Source: a virus
Virus record (IMG/VR): IMGVR_UViG_3300037504_000284
Span: 1-29,447 of that record
DNA: 29,447 nucleotides
Direction: 5' to 3' (one strand)
The notes below the pieces were generated by a model, which saw only the letters and a list, made by a program, of their open reading frames with translations, did no database searches and was not told where the DNA came from. Below are positions 13,559 to 27,619 of this stretch, piece after piece; position 1 is the first letter of the stretch; each line of letters starts with the position of its first letter. Position numbers and translations under genes: made by a program.

Positions 13559-13995
13559 AACTAACTAAAACGCACCTCAAAGACATCTCGGCAATTGCTT
13601 ACAACTTCTACAAGACAACCGGAATAGACCGCAATGACTTGTATCAAGAAGCAGCAATTGGCTACATTAAAGCAGCAGAAAACTATAATAATCATTCTGA
13701 TGCTTCTTTTCTAACTTATGCTCATCGTTGTGCTGTTAACAATGTAATTGATTTTATCAGGCAAGAAAAAGAATTAAGACATTTACCGATTATAGAAAGA
13801 GATTATAAAACAATGCCTTCACTTACATTCATGCTTTATGATGCAATCGAGCATTTGAGAACTTATTATAAAACATCATTGAAGTTGTTTATGCAAGGAT
13901 ACACATATTATGAAATTGCTCAAATGCTTAATATAAAAGTATCCACTCTAAAACCATTGCTTCATAGAGCAAAAAAAGAATTGAAAAAAATTTGA
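13555..13995 (+). CDS. RNA polymerase sigma-70-like factor
   Basis: A 146-residue protein. Region 2 is visible: DLYQEAAIGYIKAAENYN, then SFLTYAHRCAVNNVIDFIRQ (about 28-75), the core-binding and -10-recognition helices of sigma-70 family members. The C-terminal 40 residues (LKLFMQGYTYYEIAQMLNI, KVSTLKPLLHRAKKELKKI) are the region 4 helix-turn-helix that binds the -35 element. Region 1 and a long region 3 are missing, as in ECF/minimal phage sigmas. A phage sigma would redirect host RNA polymerase to phage promoters. The phage-specific motif starts at its stop codon. It could instead be an HTH regulator derived from a sigma factor. Confidence 0.85.
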   Translation: MKLTKTHLKDISAIAYNFYKTTGIDRNDLYQEAAIGYIKAAENYNNHSDASFLTYAHRCAVNNVIDFIRQEKELRHLPIIERDYKTMPSLTFMLYDAIEHLRTYYKTSLKLFMQGYTYYEIAQMLNIKVSTLKPLLHRAKKELKKI

Positions 13996-14022
13996 AACTT
14001 TTTTAAAAAATTATCGTATAAC
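13994..14022 (+). promoter_or_regulatory. Phage promoter motif before the pentapeptide gene
   Basis: GAAACTTTTTT, 9 bases, TCGTATAAC. The GAAAC overlaps the sigma gene stop (TGA 13993-13995). It can also be read as TTGAAA-N19-TATAAC. One of four copies of the motif in the window. Confidence 0.55.
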
Positions 14023-14024
14023 TT

Positions 14025-14045
14025 ATAAAAACAATTGAATTATGA
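14025..14045 (+). repeat. 21-bp direct repeat at a start site, copy 1
   Basis: The 21 bases up to and including the ATG and first base of the next codon recur exactly at 14786-14806. The core is ACAATTGAATTATGA. The two copies bracket the pentapeptide-repeat gene. Confidence 0.65.
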
Positions 14046-14782
14046 AAACAATTAAATCAATTTTCGAACAAACTCTTTTTGAATCAAAAAATGCTCAAAC
14101 AGTTAAAGAGTTGTTAGAAGAAGCAGTCAAGCAAAATTCTGTCTTGAGAGGTGCTGACTTGACAAATTCTGACTTGAGAGGTGCTGACTTGACAAATTCT
14201 GACTTGACAAATTCTGACTTGAGAGGTGCTGGCTTGATAAATTCTGACTTGAGACATGCTGACTTGACAAATTCTGACTTGAGACATGCTGACTTGAGAC
14301 ATGCTGACTTGACAAATTCTGACTTGAGAGGTGCTGACTTGACAAATTCTGACTTGAGACATGCTGACTTGAGAGGTGCTGACTTGAGAGGTGCTGTCTT
14401 GAGAGGTGCTGACTTGAGAGGTGCTGTCTTGGAGGTAGACAAAATTAAACACCTATTTCAAATTGTGCCAGAAGAAGGATCATTCATAGCCTGGAAAAAA
14501 GGAGAAAATGATTACATCATTAAACTATTAATACCAGCAAATGCAAAAAGACACAATCACCTTGCGGGACGAAAATGTAGAGCTGAATTTGTTGATGTCC
14601 TCAATATCTTTGATAACAAAGGGAATGAGACTAATGAATGTCAAAATGGAACGAATGATAATAGAGTAACCTACAAAGTAGGAAAAAGAACTTATGCTGA
14701 CAGTTATGATCCTGATCCTCGTGTTAATTGTTCAAATGGTATTCATTTCTTTTTGACACGTAAAGAAGCAGAAGAATGGTAA
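14042..14782 (+). CDS. Pentapeptide-repeat protein with DUF5758-like C-terminus
   Basis: A 246-residue protein. Residues 34-129 are about 19 pentapeptides of the A(D/N)Lxx kind, drawn from three units (DLRGA, DLTNS, DLRHA). They predict a right-handed quadrilateral beta helix, the fold that mimics DNA in the gyrase-protecting MfpA/Qnr proteins. The C-terminal domain (about 140-246) contains GSFIAWKKGENDYIIKLLIP and ends in NCSNGIHFFLTRKEAEEW, a pattern I associate with DUF5758, which is often fused to pentapeptides in phages. The cellular role is unknown; DNA mimicry is an inference. It is bracketed by a 21-bp direct repeat and preceded by the TCGTATAAC promoter motif. Confidence 0.88.
   Translation: MKTIKSIFEQTLFESKNAQTVKELLEEAVKQNSVLRGADLTNSDLRGADLTNSDLTNSDLRGAGLINSDLRHADLTNSDLRHADLRHADLTNSDLRGADLTNSDLRHADLRGADLRGAVLRGADLRGAVLEVDKIKHLFQIVPEEGSFIAWKKGENDYIIKLLIPANAKRHNHLAGRKCRAEFVDVLNIFDNKGNETNECQNGTNDNRVTYKVGKRTYADSYDPDPRVNCSNGIHFFLTRKEAEEW
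14141..14425 (+). repeat. Array of 19 tandem 15-bp units inside the pentapeptide gene
   Basis: Units GACTTGAGAGGTGCT, GACTTGACAAATTCT and GACTTGAGACATGCT occur in mixed order, nearly identical at DNA level including third positions. The identity is far greater than protein selection requires and points to recent expansion by unequal exchange or slippage. Unit gain or loss keeps the reading frame. Confidence 0.9.
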
Positions 14783-16552: not shown

Positions 16553-16583
16553 ATTGTTTGTTATTTTAAAAATTTTGTTTTAA

Positions 16584-16714
16584 TATTGCAGTATGAAAAT
16601 GGCCAGCAACATACAGAATAAAATTACTGTTTCTCATAGTTTCATAGGTTTAACAATAAGTGAAAGCCCGGATAGTTTTATGTTGCTGGCCGCAATACCT
16701 CTATCCGGGCTTTG
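16584..16714 (+). ncRNA. Interlocked A-B-A'-B' RNA upstream of the antirepressor fusion
   Basis: Two perfect 13-base complementarities are interleaved: A GGCCAGCAACATA (16601-16613) with A' TATGTTGCTGGCC (16679-16691), and B AAAGCCCGGATAG (16663-16675) with B' CTATCCGGGCTTT (16701-16713). TATTGC (16584-16589) can extend A with GCAATA (16692-16697). B lies inside the A-A' loop while B' lies outside, so the whole can be a pseudoknot, two mutually exclusive hairpins (B-B' followed by GTTTTG could act as a terminator), or an antisense segment (A,B) with a downstream target (A',B'). B' ends 29 bases before the ATG of the KilA-N fusion gene. Confidence 0.75.
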
Positions 16715-16724
16715 TTTTGTATAA
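16593..16724 (+). CDS. Possible 43-aa leader peptide across the structured RNA
   Basis: An ATG at 16593 opens 43 codons that run through both stem pairs, beginning MKMASNIQNK and ending in a hydrophobic SFMLLAAIPLSGLCFV, then TAA. A translated leader could choose between RNA folds, as in attenuation. There is no clear ribosome-binding site, and the frame may be accidental. Confidence 0.3.
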   Translation: MKMASNIQNKITVSHSFIGLTISESPDSFMLLAAIPLSGLCFV

Positions 16725-16742: not shown

Positions 16743-18410
16743 ATGGTAGGACATTCAGAATTAACACAGTATAAACAAGAAGATGTTAAGAAAAACGTAG
16801 AACAAGTAATACAACGTTTGTTCAGAATTTTCAAAGAACATGATCCTTATTTATCTTATAGCAGACTAACTTTTATTGACTGTACCGCAGGAGATTTAGA
16901 AACCGGAGGAGATATGAATTTAACTTCTCCCGGAATATTCTTAAATGAAATAATCAGACAAAGCAAAGAAATTGATGATATACCCACAACCTTGTTTCTG
17001 ATTGAAAAAAATAAAAAAGCATTTGAAAAACTAACAAAAAATTATAACAAATATTTTAAGAAAGAAATAAAAAATAACACAAATTGTAATGTTAAACTAA
17101 AAAATAAAAACTTCAAAGATGCCTTATGGAATTTAGGCAGTGTAAAATATAGGTACGGACTTGTATATGTTGATGCAAATGGATACTCTCATGAAGACTA
17201 TTCAGCAGCAATAGACTTTGTTAATAAAAATGAAAGAGTGGACTTACTTGCAAATATAAATTACGCAAGTATAGCACGAGCAAGAGGATTTGGACAGAAA
17301 AATCCTGATAGTGCTTACGAAGTATATAAAGATTTATATATGGAAGACATCATAGATTCAATTGACAAAGACATCAAATATATAAGAGATGGAAAACATC
17401 AAGCAAAAATAAAAAGAAGAGGTAATCAGTTTACAATGATATATGCTTCTAATTACAGAAATCATAATCAATTACCAGATAACTTTGTACCAGCTTATTC
17501 AGAAAAAGGACAAGAACTTATGGACAAATATAATTTTAAGAAAGACAACAAAGATTCTATTCAATCAACAGAAGAATCAACGCAACAAACTAACACGAAT
17601 ATCACTCCATTTCAATACGGAAACTCTAAAATAACATTCAAACAAAACAATGGAGTAGTAATGATCAATGCCACTGAAATGGCTAAACCGTTTGGAAAAA
17701 GACCTAATGATTGGTTACATTTACCTTCAACTCGTTCATTTTTAGAGACTTTGAGAAATACAAGATTTTCTGGTATTACTGAAAATCAACTAATTACAAC
17801 TTCAAGAGGAGGACCTGCCACTAAAAATGTTGCACCCGGAACTTGGATGCACGAAGATGTTGCATTAGAGTTTGCACGCTGGCTTTCTCCTCAGTTCGCA
17901 ATCTGGTGTAATGATAAGATAAAAGAATTGATGACTGAAGGACAAACTTCAATAAAGAACACAGACAACAGAACACTTGCAAAAATGAACATTGAACTGG
18001 CCAATCGTCTTTTGAAATCAGAAGATGAAAAAGATGAATTAAAAAAACAAAACAAAGAACTTGAAAATAAAGCTGAATACGCTAATAAAATTTCAAACAG
18101 CGAATCATTATACAAAATATCGGAAATTGCCATGAAAGACTTTAAAATTTCTGGACAAAAACTAAATAAAGAATTGCAGAAAGCAAGTGTTCAATACAAA
18201 CAAGGAAATACTTGGTATTTATACAGAGAACATTTAGGAAAAGGTTATACCAGTTCTGTTACTAAATCATATACAGACAACAAAACCGGAAACGTTAATA
18301 CTGCAATTCAAATGAGATGGACTGAAAAAGGACGACAGTTCATCCATGACCTAGTTAATAATGGACATATATCACTTAACGGACAACCTAAAAGAAAAAG
18401 AAGAAAATAA
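16743..18410 (+). CDS. TcmP-like (methyltransferase-fold) + KilA-N + KilAC fusion
   Basis: A 555-residue protein in one unbroken frame. Residues 1-260 resemble the three-Cys-motif partner protein TcmP: YSRLTFIDCTAG (44-50) in the place of the SAM-type first strand, LFLIEKNKKAFEKL (84-97), a VYVDANGYSHED segment (141-152, where relatives have D-P-x-G) and LLANINYASIARARGF. Residues 290-400 form a KilA-N domain (INATEMAKPFGKRPNDWLH; TWMHEDVALEFARWLSPQFA), a DNA-binding domain of phage regulators. Residues 405-447 form a coiled coil. Residues 455-540 match the KilAC antirepressor C-terminus (ISEIAMKDFKISGQKLNKEL; RWTEKGRQFIHDLV). A regulator or antirepressor is the likely role; the activity of the N-terminal part is unknown. 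No separate three-Cys partner gene is visible nearby. Confidence 0.82.
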   Translation: MVGHSELTQYKQEDVKKNVEQVIQRLFRIFKEHDPYLSYSRLTFIDCTAGDLETGGDMNLTSPGIFLNEIIRQSKEIDDIPTTLFLIEKNKKAFEKLTKNYNKYFKKEIKNNTNCNVKLKNKNFKDALWNLGSVKYRYGLVYVDANGYSHEDYSAAIDFVNKNERVDLLANINYASIARARGFGQKNPDSAYEVYKDLYMEDIIDSIDKDIKYIRDGKHQAKIKRRGNQFTMIYASNYRNHNQLPDNFVPAYSEKGQELMDKYNFKKDNKDSIQSTEESTQQTNTNITPFQYGNSKITFKQNNGVVMINATEMAKPFGKRPNDWLHLPSTRSFLETLRNTRFSGITENQLITTSRGGPATKNVAPGTWMHEDVALEFARWLSPQFAIWCNDKIKELMTEGQTSIKNTDNRTLAKMNIELANRLLKSEDEKDELKKQNKELENKAEYANKISNSESLYKISEIAMKDFKISGQKLNKELQKASVQYKQGNTWYLYREHLGKGYTSSVTKSYTDNKTGNVNTAIQMRWTEKGRQFIHDLVNNGHISLNGQPKRKRRK

Positions 18411-25619: not shown

Positions 25620-27059
25620 ATGGCAGACACAGGCATTGAACGCCGAATCATTATAGGATTAGTTGCATCTGATGAGTATATCGAGAGAATAAGAGACATT
25701 TTCGATCCAACATTTTTTGAATCTACTGCTGCACGCTATATAGCTCAATGGTGCATGGAGTATTTTGATAGATATGGTCAAGCTCCGGCTACTCAGAGTA
25801 ATATAGTAGGTATTTTTATAAAAAAGAAAAGAGAAGGCAAAATTAAACAACAGCTCGCTGATGAAATAGATGAGGATATAATGCCTTCTCTTAGCGATGA
25901 GTTTCTTAGAGAAGAGTTTAACGTAGATCAGCGTGTAGAAGAAACTCAACAATACGCATTGGAGAGGGTTGTGCAGCAAAAGATTGATCAAGGTCAAAGT
26001 TATCTCAAAACAGGTGAAATTGAGAAAGCGGCAGAACTCTTTGATGTAGATATAGATGCAAGTGATAAGGATATAGAAGAGTCAATCCAGTCTATTGAAC
26101 AAATTGAACAGGAGAAGCCGGAGAAGCCGAAAATGCTTATGGCCCCGTGGCTCCGGCAAGGAGAGACAACACTCTTGTATGCACAAGCCGGTGTTGGTAA
26201 GTCACTTATTGCAATATTAACTGCATATCTTCTTGGTCTTAAAGATTATGATAAAGATGAAGCTAAGATTGGCAATTGGGTTGTGAAGAACACTACAGGC
26301 ACGTTATATATTGATGGAGAGATGGGTAAAAGTGAGATGCTTGACCGGGTGAAAGGTTTCAGATGGGTTGGACAGCAGAGAAACGGTAAAGGCATTAGAA
26401 TACTTTCTTTGCCGGATTATCAAATTGAGCAAGAAAAACAATTTGATCTGTCTGAACGAGATCAGCAGCGTAAGATTATCAAGTGGCTGCAAGAGCATCC
26501 GAAGTATAAATTACTTGTCATTGATTCGGTTTCAACAGTTTTTGGATTGGATGATGAGAATAGTAATTCAGAGTGGTCACAAAAAATTAATCCATTTATT
26601 CGGGATTTAAGAGCTTTGGGTGTGGCGCATATAATTCAACATCATGCGGGTAAAAATGGTGAATTACGTGGAGCATCGGCTATGGATGCTATGGCGCATA
26701 ATAAAATCCGTTTGAAGGATCATGACAGTAAGATGCAAGGAGAGGCTTGGTTTTGGGTTGATAATCATGGCAAGCAACGTGCTGCCGGTAAAACTTTTCA
26801 ACGTTTTCAGATTAAATTTGTAAGCGAGAGAGGTAGAACGATTTGGTTTGAGCCGGAGCAAGATTACATCAGTAAAAAAGATAAACAAGCATTATTGCAG
26901 GATTTAAGTGAAGGTATTGAGATAGAAAAATTGGCAGAAGATTATGGGATAACAAAAGAGGAGGTTATGAATGTAAAATCTAACTTCAAAAGGCTATTCT
27001 TATTGAATGAAAATGACGAGATTACGGCAAGTGGGAGAGAATTTTTGAAGAATAAGTGA
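25620..27059 (+). CDS. Replicative helicase-like protein (DnaB-N + RecA-fold ATPase)
   Basis: A 479-residue protein. Residues 5-100 look like the DnaB N-terminal helical domain (RRIIIGLVASDEYIERIRDI ... FFESTAARYIAQWCMEYF). The ATPase (about 172-400) has YAQAGVGKS (Walker A, 187-195), a TLYIDGEMGK segment (229-237), LLVIDSVSTVFG (Walker B, 298-309) and IIQHHAGKNGELRGASAM (338-355), the AAA_25/RepA-like RecA fold. The C-terminus (about 425-479) is a small HTH (IEKLAEDYGITKEEVMNVKS). It is the likely fork helicase partnered by the primase at 14803, although the family also includes RepA-type plasmid helicases. Its stop overlaps a phage promoter motif. Confidence 0.87.
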   Translation: MADTGIERRIIIGLVASDEYIERIRDIFDPTFFESTAARYIAQWCMEYFDRYGQAPATQSNIVGIFIKKKREGKIKQQLADEIDEDIMPSLSDEFLREEFNVDQRVEETQQYALERVVQQKIDQGQSYLKTGEIEKAAELFDVDIDASDKDIEESIQSIEQIEQEKPEKPKMLMAPWLRQGETTLLYAQAGVGKSLIAILTAYLLGLKDYDKDEAKIGNWVVKNTTGTLYIDGEMGKSEMLDRVKGFRWVGQQRNGKGIRILSLPDYQIEQEKQFDLSERDQQRKIIKWLQEHPKYKLLVIDSVSTVFGLDDENSNSEWSQKINPFIRDLRALGVAHIIQHHAGKNGELRGASAMDAMAHNKIRLKDHDSKMQGEAWFWVDNHGKQRAAGKTFQRFQIKFVSERGRTIWFEPEQDYISKKDKQALLQDLSEGIEIEKLAEDYGITKEEVMNVKSNFKRLFLLNENDEITASGREFLKNK

Positions 27060-27086
27060 AACTTTTTTGAAATTTTGTCGTATAAC
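27058..27086 (+). promoter_or_regulatory. Phage promoter motif before a small RNA
   Basis: GAAACTTTTTT, 9 bases, TCGTATAAC. It begins inside the helicase stop codon (TGA 27057-27059), as the copy at 13994 begins inside the sigma stop. A TTTG 22 bases before AAATTTTG gives a weaker match to the host promoter form. Confidence 0.6.
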
Positions 27087-27087
27087 G

Positions 27088-27212
27088 TTATAGAGAAATT
27101 AAAAATGAGCCATGCAAGTCAGAAAGACCGGAGATGAATTATAAATTAAAATTAACTAATGTTGAATCTAACGTCCGTATCAATTGTTAGTGTTATTTCT
27201 CCGGTCTTTTTT
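27088..27212 (+). ncRNA. Candidate phage small RNA, about 125 nt, with own promoter and terminator
   Basis: Directly after the promoter motif lies a gene-free stretch closed by AAAGACCGGAGA (27123-27134) pairing over 12 perfect bases with TCTCCGGTCTTT (27198-27209), then a run of six T (27207-27212). Inside the loop, ACTAA/TTAGT (27155-27159 with 27187-27191) and TTGA/TCAA (27162-27165 with 27180-27183) form an inner stem. No good open reading frame is present. Promoter, stem and T-run together look like a free-standing RNA; alternatively it is a large terminator. Confidence 0.65.
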
Positions 27213-27223
27213 CTGAAATTTTC

Positions 27224-27263
27224 TTTGAGTTTTTGAAACTTTATTTTAATTTTGTCGTATAAC
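27224..27263 (+). promoter_or_regulatory. Promoter before the cupin gene
   Basis: TTTG (27224-27227), 19 bases, TAATTTTG (27247-27254) is an exact Bacteroidota promoter match. It overlaps GAAACTTTATT (27235-27245), 9 bases, TCGTATAAC (27255-27263), the phage motif. It lies only 11 bases before the ATG at 27275, so a short leader is expected. Confidence 0.65.
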
Positions 27264-27274
27264 ATAAATGAACT

Positions 27275-27619
27275 ATGAAAAGAGAACAGAAAATTTGGGG
27301 ACAAAGGTGGCTTATCCGATGTGATTCAACACACGCAGTAAGTTATCTTGAACTTGAAAAGAACGTACAGTGTAGTTGGCATCGACATGAAACTAAATAT
27401 AATTTATTCGTGGTTTTAGAAGGTGAGTTAATTTTGGAGATTGAAGAACTTGATAATATTAAAACAGTTACTTTGAATAAAGGAGAAGAATTTACTATCA
27501 AACCGGGACAATGGCATCTATTTCGATGCTTTTGTGAGAATACGAAAGTTATAGAAGAAATGTTCGTAGAATATAATGAATCAGATATTGAACGTCAAAA
27601 TAAAGGGAATAGGTTATGA
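27275..27619 (+). CDS. Small cupin-fold protein
   Basis: A 114-residue single-domain cupin. The metal-binding pattern is visible: CSWHRHETKYNLFVVLEGEL (His at about 35 and 37, with a following Glu near 56), GEEFTIKPGQWHLFRC (His at about 88). The layout resembles the mannose-6-phosphate isomerase type II/sugar-related cupins. In phages such proteins may modify a sugar or act as sensors; the substrate is unknown. It is led by the promoter pair at 27224-27263 and overlaps the next gene by 4 bases. Confidence 0.82.
   Translation: MKREQKIWGQRWLIRCDSTHAVSYLELEKNVQCSWHRHETKYNLFVVLEGELILEIEELDNIKTVTLNKGEEFTIKPGQWHLFRCFCENTKVIEEMFVEYNESDIERQNKGNRL

Follow-up and report, generated by a model that had tools for sequence, protein, structure and literature searches.

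The window analyzed here, 29,447 bases long, comprises an entire IMG/VR record and is probably a phage fragment. It encodes an antirepressor, ant, with KilA-N (Pfam PF04383, E 6.7e-19) and ANT (PF03374, E 6.5e-25) domains. Fused to its N terminus is a TcmP-like (three-Cys-motif partner, methyltransferase-like) domain that matches TIGR04474 at E 4.6e-11 and 43 bits, under the curated cut-off of 53, and that had no match in annotated phages or plasmids. Searches of viral contigs gave no close protein relatives of ant, the primase, or the helicase, and the terminase search returned three distant contigs, all of them lacking ant. Phages with an ant gene starting with ATGGCCAGCAACATA were also sought; 84 stretches matched, and a KilA-N signature was present in none of them. 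Four sequence arms in the order A-B-A'-B' lie directly ahead of ant (Table 1).

Table 1. The leader of ant in the window, and positions of the R1 elements in related loci.
Feature	Position	Strand	Description
Putative Bacteroidota-type promoter	16557-16588	+	TTTG 16557-16560, 20 nt, TAATATTG 16581-16588
Outer extension of A	16584-16589	+	TATTGC; complement of GCAATA
43-codon open frame	16593-16724	+	MKMASNIQNK...; crosses both stems, stops 18 nt before ant
Arm A	16601-16613	+	GGCCAGCAACATA; 5' copy, a1b1-like; at the expected RNA 5' end
Arm B	16663-16675	+	AAAGCCCGGATAG; 5' strand of the outer stem/terminator, c4 P1-like
Arm A'	16679-16691	+	TATGTTGCTGGCC; antisense-like segment inside the B-B' loop
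Partner of the outer extension	16692-16697	+	GCAATA; complement of TATTGC
Arm B'	16701-16713	+	CTATCCGGGCTTT; followed by GTTTT, a terminator-like short-RNA end, to 16718
ant	16743-18410	+	antirepressor; TcmP-like N-terminal domain, KilA-N, ANT (KilAC)
R1 elements (locus and position)	L015 2636, L016 2784, L018 2530, L025 237, L029 2644, L045 2578, L049 2413, L057 2595, L058 2810, L075 2872, L088 2867, L092 2616, L096 2876, L105 1815 and 2653, L118 3667, L131 3709, L133 3707, L142 2553

A pairs with A' and B pairs with B', each by 13/13 Watson-Crick matches, and the two interleaved complementarities stand exactly where the original prediction had placed them. Among perfect inverted repeats of the window spaced up to 150 bases apart, these two are the longest. 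Dinucleotide shuffling of the 190-base gap produced an interleaved pair of 10 bp in 6 of 20,000 trials and one of at least 11 bp in none, and an interleaved pair of more than 10 bp was absent from all 200 shuffles of the whole window. The earlier judgment that chance is an unlikely source of the arms is thus borne out. The B-B' stem has an energy of -21.9 kcal/mol and encloses a 25-nt loop with room for a small hairpin only, and the T-tract after B' is interrupted (GTTTTG). A is the sole other match to A' in the window at up to one mismatch; the A'-A energy is -27.3 kcal/mol, compared to -18.6 and -17.5 kcal/mol for A' with two GTG starts in the window.

Bacteroidetes promoters have a characteristic consensus and spacing, and a putative promoter of this type precedes A. 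Its -7 box has one mismatch to TAnnTTTG, and the RNA would be expected to start at about 16592-16597. In 16 of the 22 loci from relatives, A has an exact TAnnTTTG no more than 34 nt upstream of it, compared to 3.4% for positions chosen at random. Most relatives of the KilA-N region are from Bacteroidota, in agreement with the promoter type. The 6-bp extension of A that had been described is present, but it is interrupted by an 11-nt bulge on its 5' side, and its 5' half falls within the TAnnTTTG-like box. The extension is therefore probably absent from the RNA and a feature of the DNA only.

The 43-codon open frame is probably a chance occurrence. Its likelihood of staying open by chance is about 0.05, it has no family or phage match, and it does not recur among the relatives inspected. 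The frame bears on two other explanations of the leader. The first is leader-peptide attenuation, with translation of the frame through B blocking termination. The frame does span both stems and stop just ahead of ant, but its openness by chance and the failure to find homologues count against this scheme, as do an A arm without an ATG at locus L041 and an expected RNA start that leaves barely any leader ahead of the ATG. We consider leader-peptide attenuation very improbable. The second, drawn by analogy, is a dual RNA like IsrK of the prophage Gifsy-1, which is terminated, lies ahead of the small ORF orf45 and the antirepressor anrP, and has alternative folds (PMC4825925). The short terminated RNA would then activate translation of the read-through antirepressor transcript. 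The frame occupies the place equivalent to orf45, but it may be a chance frame, is absent from the relatives inspected, and the sign of the regulation is not readable from sequence. This explanation also appears improbable, if somewhat less so.

Other features were seen in the window. The motif GAAACTTT-N13-CGTATAAC occurs three times (13994-14022, 27058-27086, and 27235-27263) where zero occurrences are expected, and one copy directly follows an ECF-like sigma gene of the phage (13555-13995; TIGR02937, E 7.8e-20). The set is a possible phage ECF regulon. At 14042-14782 is a gene for a pentapeptide-repeat protein (DLRGADLTNSDL repeats), and the open frames on its opposite strand arise from the repeat. 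Region 27060-27275 has, in order, a promoter motif, a 10-codon frame (MSHASQKDRR) that stops within the 5' arm of a 12-bp terminator with a long loop (27123-27134/27198-27209), another promoter motif, and, at 27275, a cupin-like gene. It looks like a leader attenuator and is not c4-like. Its terminator (27123-27209) was considered as another copy of the element ahead of ant, but it has no leader pairing and was therefore classed as ordinary.

DNA relatives of the element were found neither in annotated phages nor, using the arm patterns, in viral contigs. We compared 138 KilA-N/antirepressor loci, some of them not independent of each other: 80 from viral contigs, 55 from Bacteroidota genomes, and 3 from annotated phage records. 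A first scan covered interleaved repeats, and a stricter scan covered terminator-like stems whose loop pairs upstream and/or downstream. The A-B-A'-B' plan is present on the antirepressor strand in 34 of the 138 loci (31 distinct sequences), a count that combines detection by complementarity, controlled by unrelated viral DNA, with matches to the covariance model R1 described below. The stricter scan gave 43 matches in the KilA-N loci and the window, with mirror-strand copies of the same elements counted, versus 1 match in 1.36 Mb (both strands) of unrelated viral DNA. The 84 stretches without KilA-N from the ATGGCCAGCAACATA search served as this negative control.

The plan is conserved in these relatives. 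B-B' forms a terminator-like stem with A' in its loop, and A is located at the predicted 5' end of the RNA, directly after the TAnnTTTG box. A' usually pairs as well with a third copy, A'', which starts at a start codon. The long downstream matches begin at ATG in 17 of 18 cases, and A' is antisense to a start codon in most of the judgeable cases. At L105, for example, the leader reads GCAATGCTAAAACAAGGGC, the antisense GCCCTTGTTTTAGCAGC is in the terminator loop, and the open frame starts ATGCTAAAACAAGG. The L105 contig has three tandem c4-like leader elements (1020-2780), each followed by an open frame. Arm sequences differ among all distinct loci and the pairing is retained; divergence of the arms without compensation, the outcome that the original prediction had set against itself, was not seen. 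Compensation was judged on the loci of the relatives, since no close DNA relative of the window copy was found. The strand-specific placement before ant and the antisense relation to start codons in the relatives point to an RNA. They argue against a DNA-level element of nested inverted repeats acting as a recombination or protein-binding site, a scarcely credible explanation whose attraction is that the TATTGC/GCAATA extension overlaps the promoter box and hence could matter only as DNA.

A MAFFT alignment that mixed all relatives was unusable, and a subgroup alignment, A3, was used instead. Model R1, built from 11 elements, covers the stem-loop body only, with A and A'' left out. Both sides changed in 12 of 16 pairs. 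Searching with R1 identified 8 more non-redundant elements along with duplicates, and each lies on the antirepressor strand. The subgroup has the core ACCCCCGUG ... UAAUG ... ACGGGA. Among the 19 R1 elements, the loop pairs with its own 5' leader at a mean of -37.8 kcal/mol, compared to -22.0 kcal/mol for mismatched leaders taken from other loci; its pairing with the next start of its own locus averages -20.4 kcal/mol, compared to -10.6 kcal/mol for mismatched starts. Neither value was equalled in 20,000 permutations. Rfam had no family at the place of the element in the R1 members scanned. The window element scored 6.4 bits against R1, from the outer stem alone, and the conserved core of the subgroup is absent from it. 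Two R1 members, L018 and L092, resemble the window in that the leader pairing is kept and the pairing with the next start is weak.

The leader encodes a fold that competes with the terminator. In the relatives, it pairs with almost the entire interior of the c4-like body, and a rough estimate, made with internal loops disregarded, indicates that the duplex often leaves a linker too short for the outer stem. Folding energies, which disregard pseudoknots and proteins, place the terminator and terminator-free folds of the relatives near isoenergetic, whereas shuffled leaders favor the terminator by about 10 kcal/mol (z -1.4 to -8.6 for real versus shuffled leaders). In the window, the fold difference calculated in this way is about +5, compared to +19 for shuffled leaders (z about -5). 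A terminator/antiterminator switch had been raised as an alternative to the c4 reading; these data support it, and the two may be one and the same. With linkers of 3 and 9 nt, a rough geometric estimate allows A-A' and B-B' of the window to coexist as a pseudoknot. The window duplex is only 13 bp and the pseudoknot is possible, so the competition between the A and B pairings is weaker than in the relatives.

The same linkers would permit a terminator or small RNA of a non-c4 kind that is pseudoknotted and self-contained, with both helices present simultaneously. The top non-c4 Rfam match, RT-12 (E 0.23), would suit such an RNA; it is below threshold, and like FopS and the other Rfam matches it was judged to be chance. 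Against this, the same rare plan recurs in the equivalent position at 34 KilA-N loci and by chance only once elsewhere, and we regard the self-contained structure as distinctly unlikely.

An A'' target is absent from the ant start of the window. Pairing of A' there is -9.1 kcal/mol, which equals background, and the window holds no second copy. The start was probably swapped when ant acquired the TcmP-like domain, which would account for an ant without A''. The original target may have been lost, or it may be situated in the part of the genome beyond the window. These features raise the idea of a relic: replacement or fusion of ant would have deprived a c4-like RNA of its target, and the RNA would no longer regulate ant. 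The missing A'', a TcmP-like domain where the usual ant start would be, and the missing inner hairpins all fit a relic. However, each stem retains 13 perfect base pairs and the competing fold is likewise retained in the leader, and we think a relic unlikely, though it is the alternative to be taken most seriously.

We favor the interpretation of the element as the 5' leader of the ant transcript and a reduced c4-type RNA switch, an antisense-controlled terminator/antiterminator, and give it a probability of roughly two in three. Transcription would start directly before A. A' is transcribed before B', so A-A' is able to form first, and this pairing would give the antiterminator-like fold or the pseudoknot. 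Alternatively, A' would remain free in the B-B' loop and B-B' would terminate transcription, leaving a short RNA of about 125 nt, in which A' would be exposed and able to bind A of a nascent transcript. Occupation of A would release A' and B, allowing B-B' to form and transcription to terminate before ant, and the antirepressor would stay off. In most relatives, the same A' would additionally cover the ant start codon. The start-codon target is missing from the window, where the leader pairing alone would remain.

A broader proposal, less likely than not, is offered tentatively. The leader copy (a1b1/A) of c4-type RNAs would be the antiterminator arm, the c4 RNA would attenuate its own leader, the start-codon target would be a second and dispensable layer, and the window would represent the bare attenuator form. 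If this is true, a phage immunity RNA would be the product of termination and would also signal termination in trans. The leader copy out-pairs the ant start in the Bacteroidota relatives (-37.8 versus -20.4 kcal/mol), which suggests a direct role in switching the terminator. Judged by sequence, c4-like RNA switches are common in Bacteroidota phages, and c4-type immunity RNAs would be far commoner there than the Rfam models reveal. Model R1 and the 31 distinct sequences are a resource for finding them.

Membership of the C4 antisense RNAs (Rfam clan CL00128) was examined with the Rfam covariance models C4, c4-2, and c4-a1b1. None scored the window element above its gathering score, whereas the positive controls matched (P1 with c4 and c4-a1b1, and L093 with c4-2), and the earlier remark that the sequence does not resemble c4 is upheld by the C4 and c4-2 comparisons. 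Rfam misses most of the relatives scanned, so this result does not exclude a c4-type function. Of the C4 features, the window has the 13-bp outer stem B-B' enclosing the antisense A', the upstream a1b1-like copy A near the expected RNA 5' end and complementary to the interior, and the downstream antirepressor gene on the same strand. The inner hairpins and three-way junction are absent from the 25-nt loop, and an a2b2 target at ant or the gene before it was not found. The c4 logic of the original prediction thus holds for the plan shared with the 34 KilA-N loci, where A' is mostly antisense to a start codon as in P1, but not for A'', the inner hairpins, or an Rfam match in the window itself. 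The window also fits the Bacteroidota c4-like leader group defined here in its A-B-A'-B' order, T-rich tail, position upstream of KilA-N/ant, and a leader that makes the terminator-free fold near-isoenergetic. Two defining C4 features and the Rfam models fail, and the element, which by its anatomy appears to work like c4, is best called a reduced variant and not a certified C4 member.

Several known systems share parts of this design. The IsrK/anrP leader is likewise a terminated small RNA with competing folds upstream of an antirepressor; it differs in activating translation in trans, and the interlocked A-B-A'-B' plan is not described in the parts of PMC4825925 drawn on here. P22 sar RNA is antisense to the antirepressor start and pairs directly with ant mRNA; a leader copy or attenuator is not described in the review (PMC12197685). 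The P1/P7 c4 RNAs with their a1b1 leader (RF01695, RF03163) share with the window a leader copy, an outer stem with interior antisense, and an antirepressor, all on one strand. The order in the P1 record is promoter P1c4, a1 (48255) and b1 (48269), annotated as putative target sites, c4 (48343-48419), a2 (48423), b2 (48452), icd, and ant1. P1 c4 has two inner hairpins, two pairings with arms of 7-8 nt, and a target before icd, whereas the window has a single 13-bp pairing, a terminator-like end, and neither inner hairpins nor a downstream target. The mature P1 c4 RNA is 77 nt and is produced by processing. The c4-2 family (RF02944) matches the element of L093, a Bacteroidaceae locus where A, A', B, B', and A'' are all present, and matches neither the window nor the other scanned relatives. 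In pT181-type attenuation, an antisense RNA chooses between terminator and antiterminator in the nascent leader. The pT181 antisense RNA comes from the opposite strand, whereas in the window the proposed antisense would be the leader itself.
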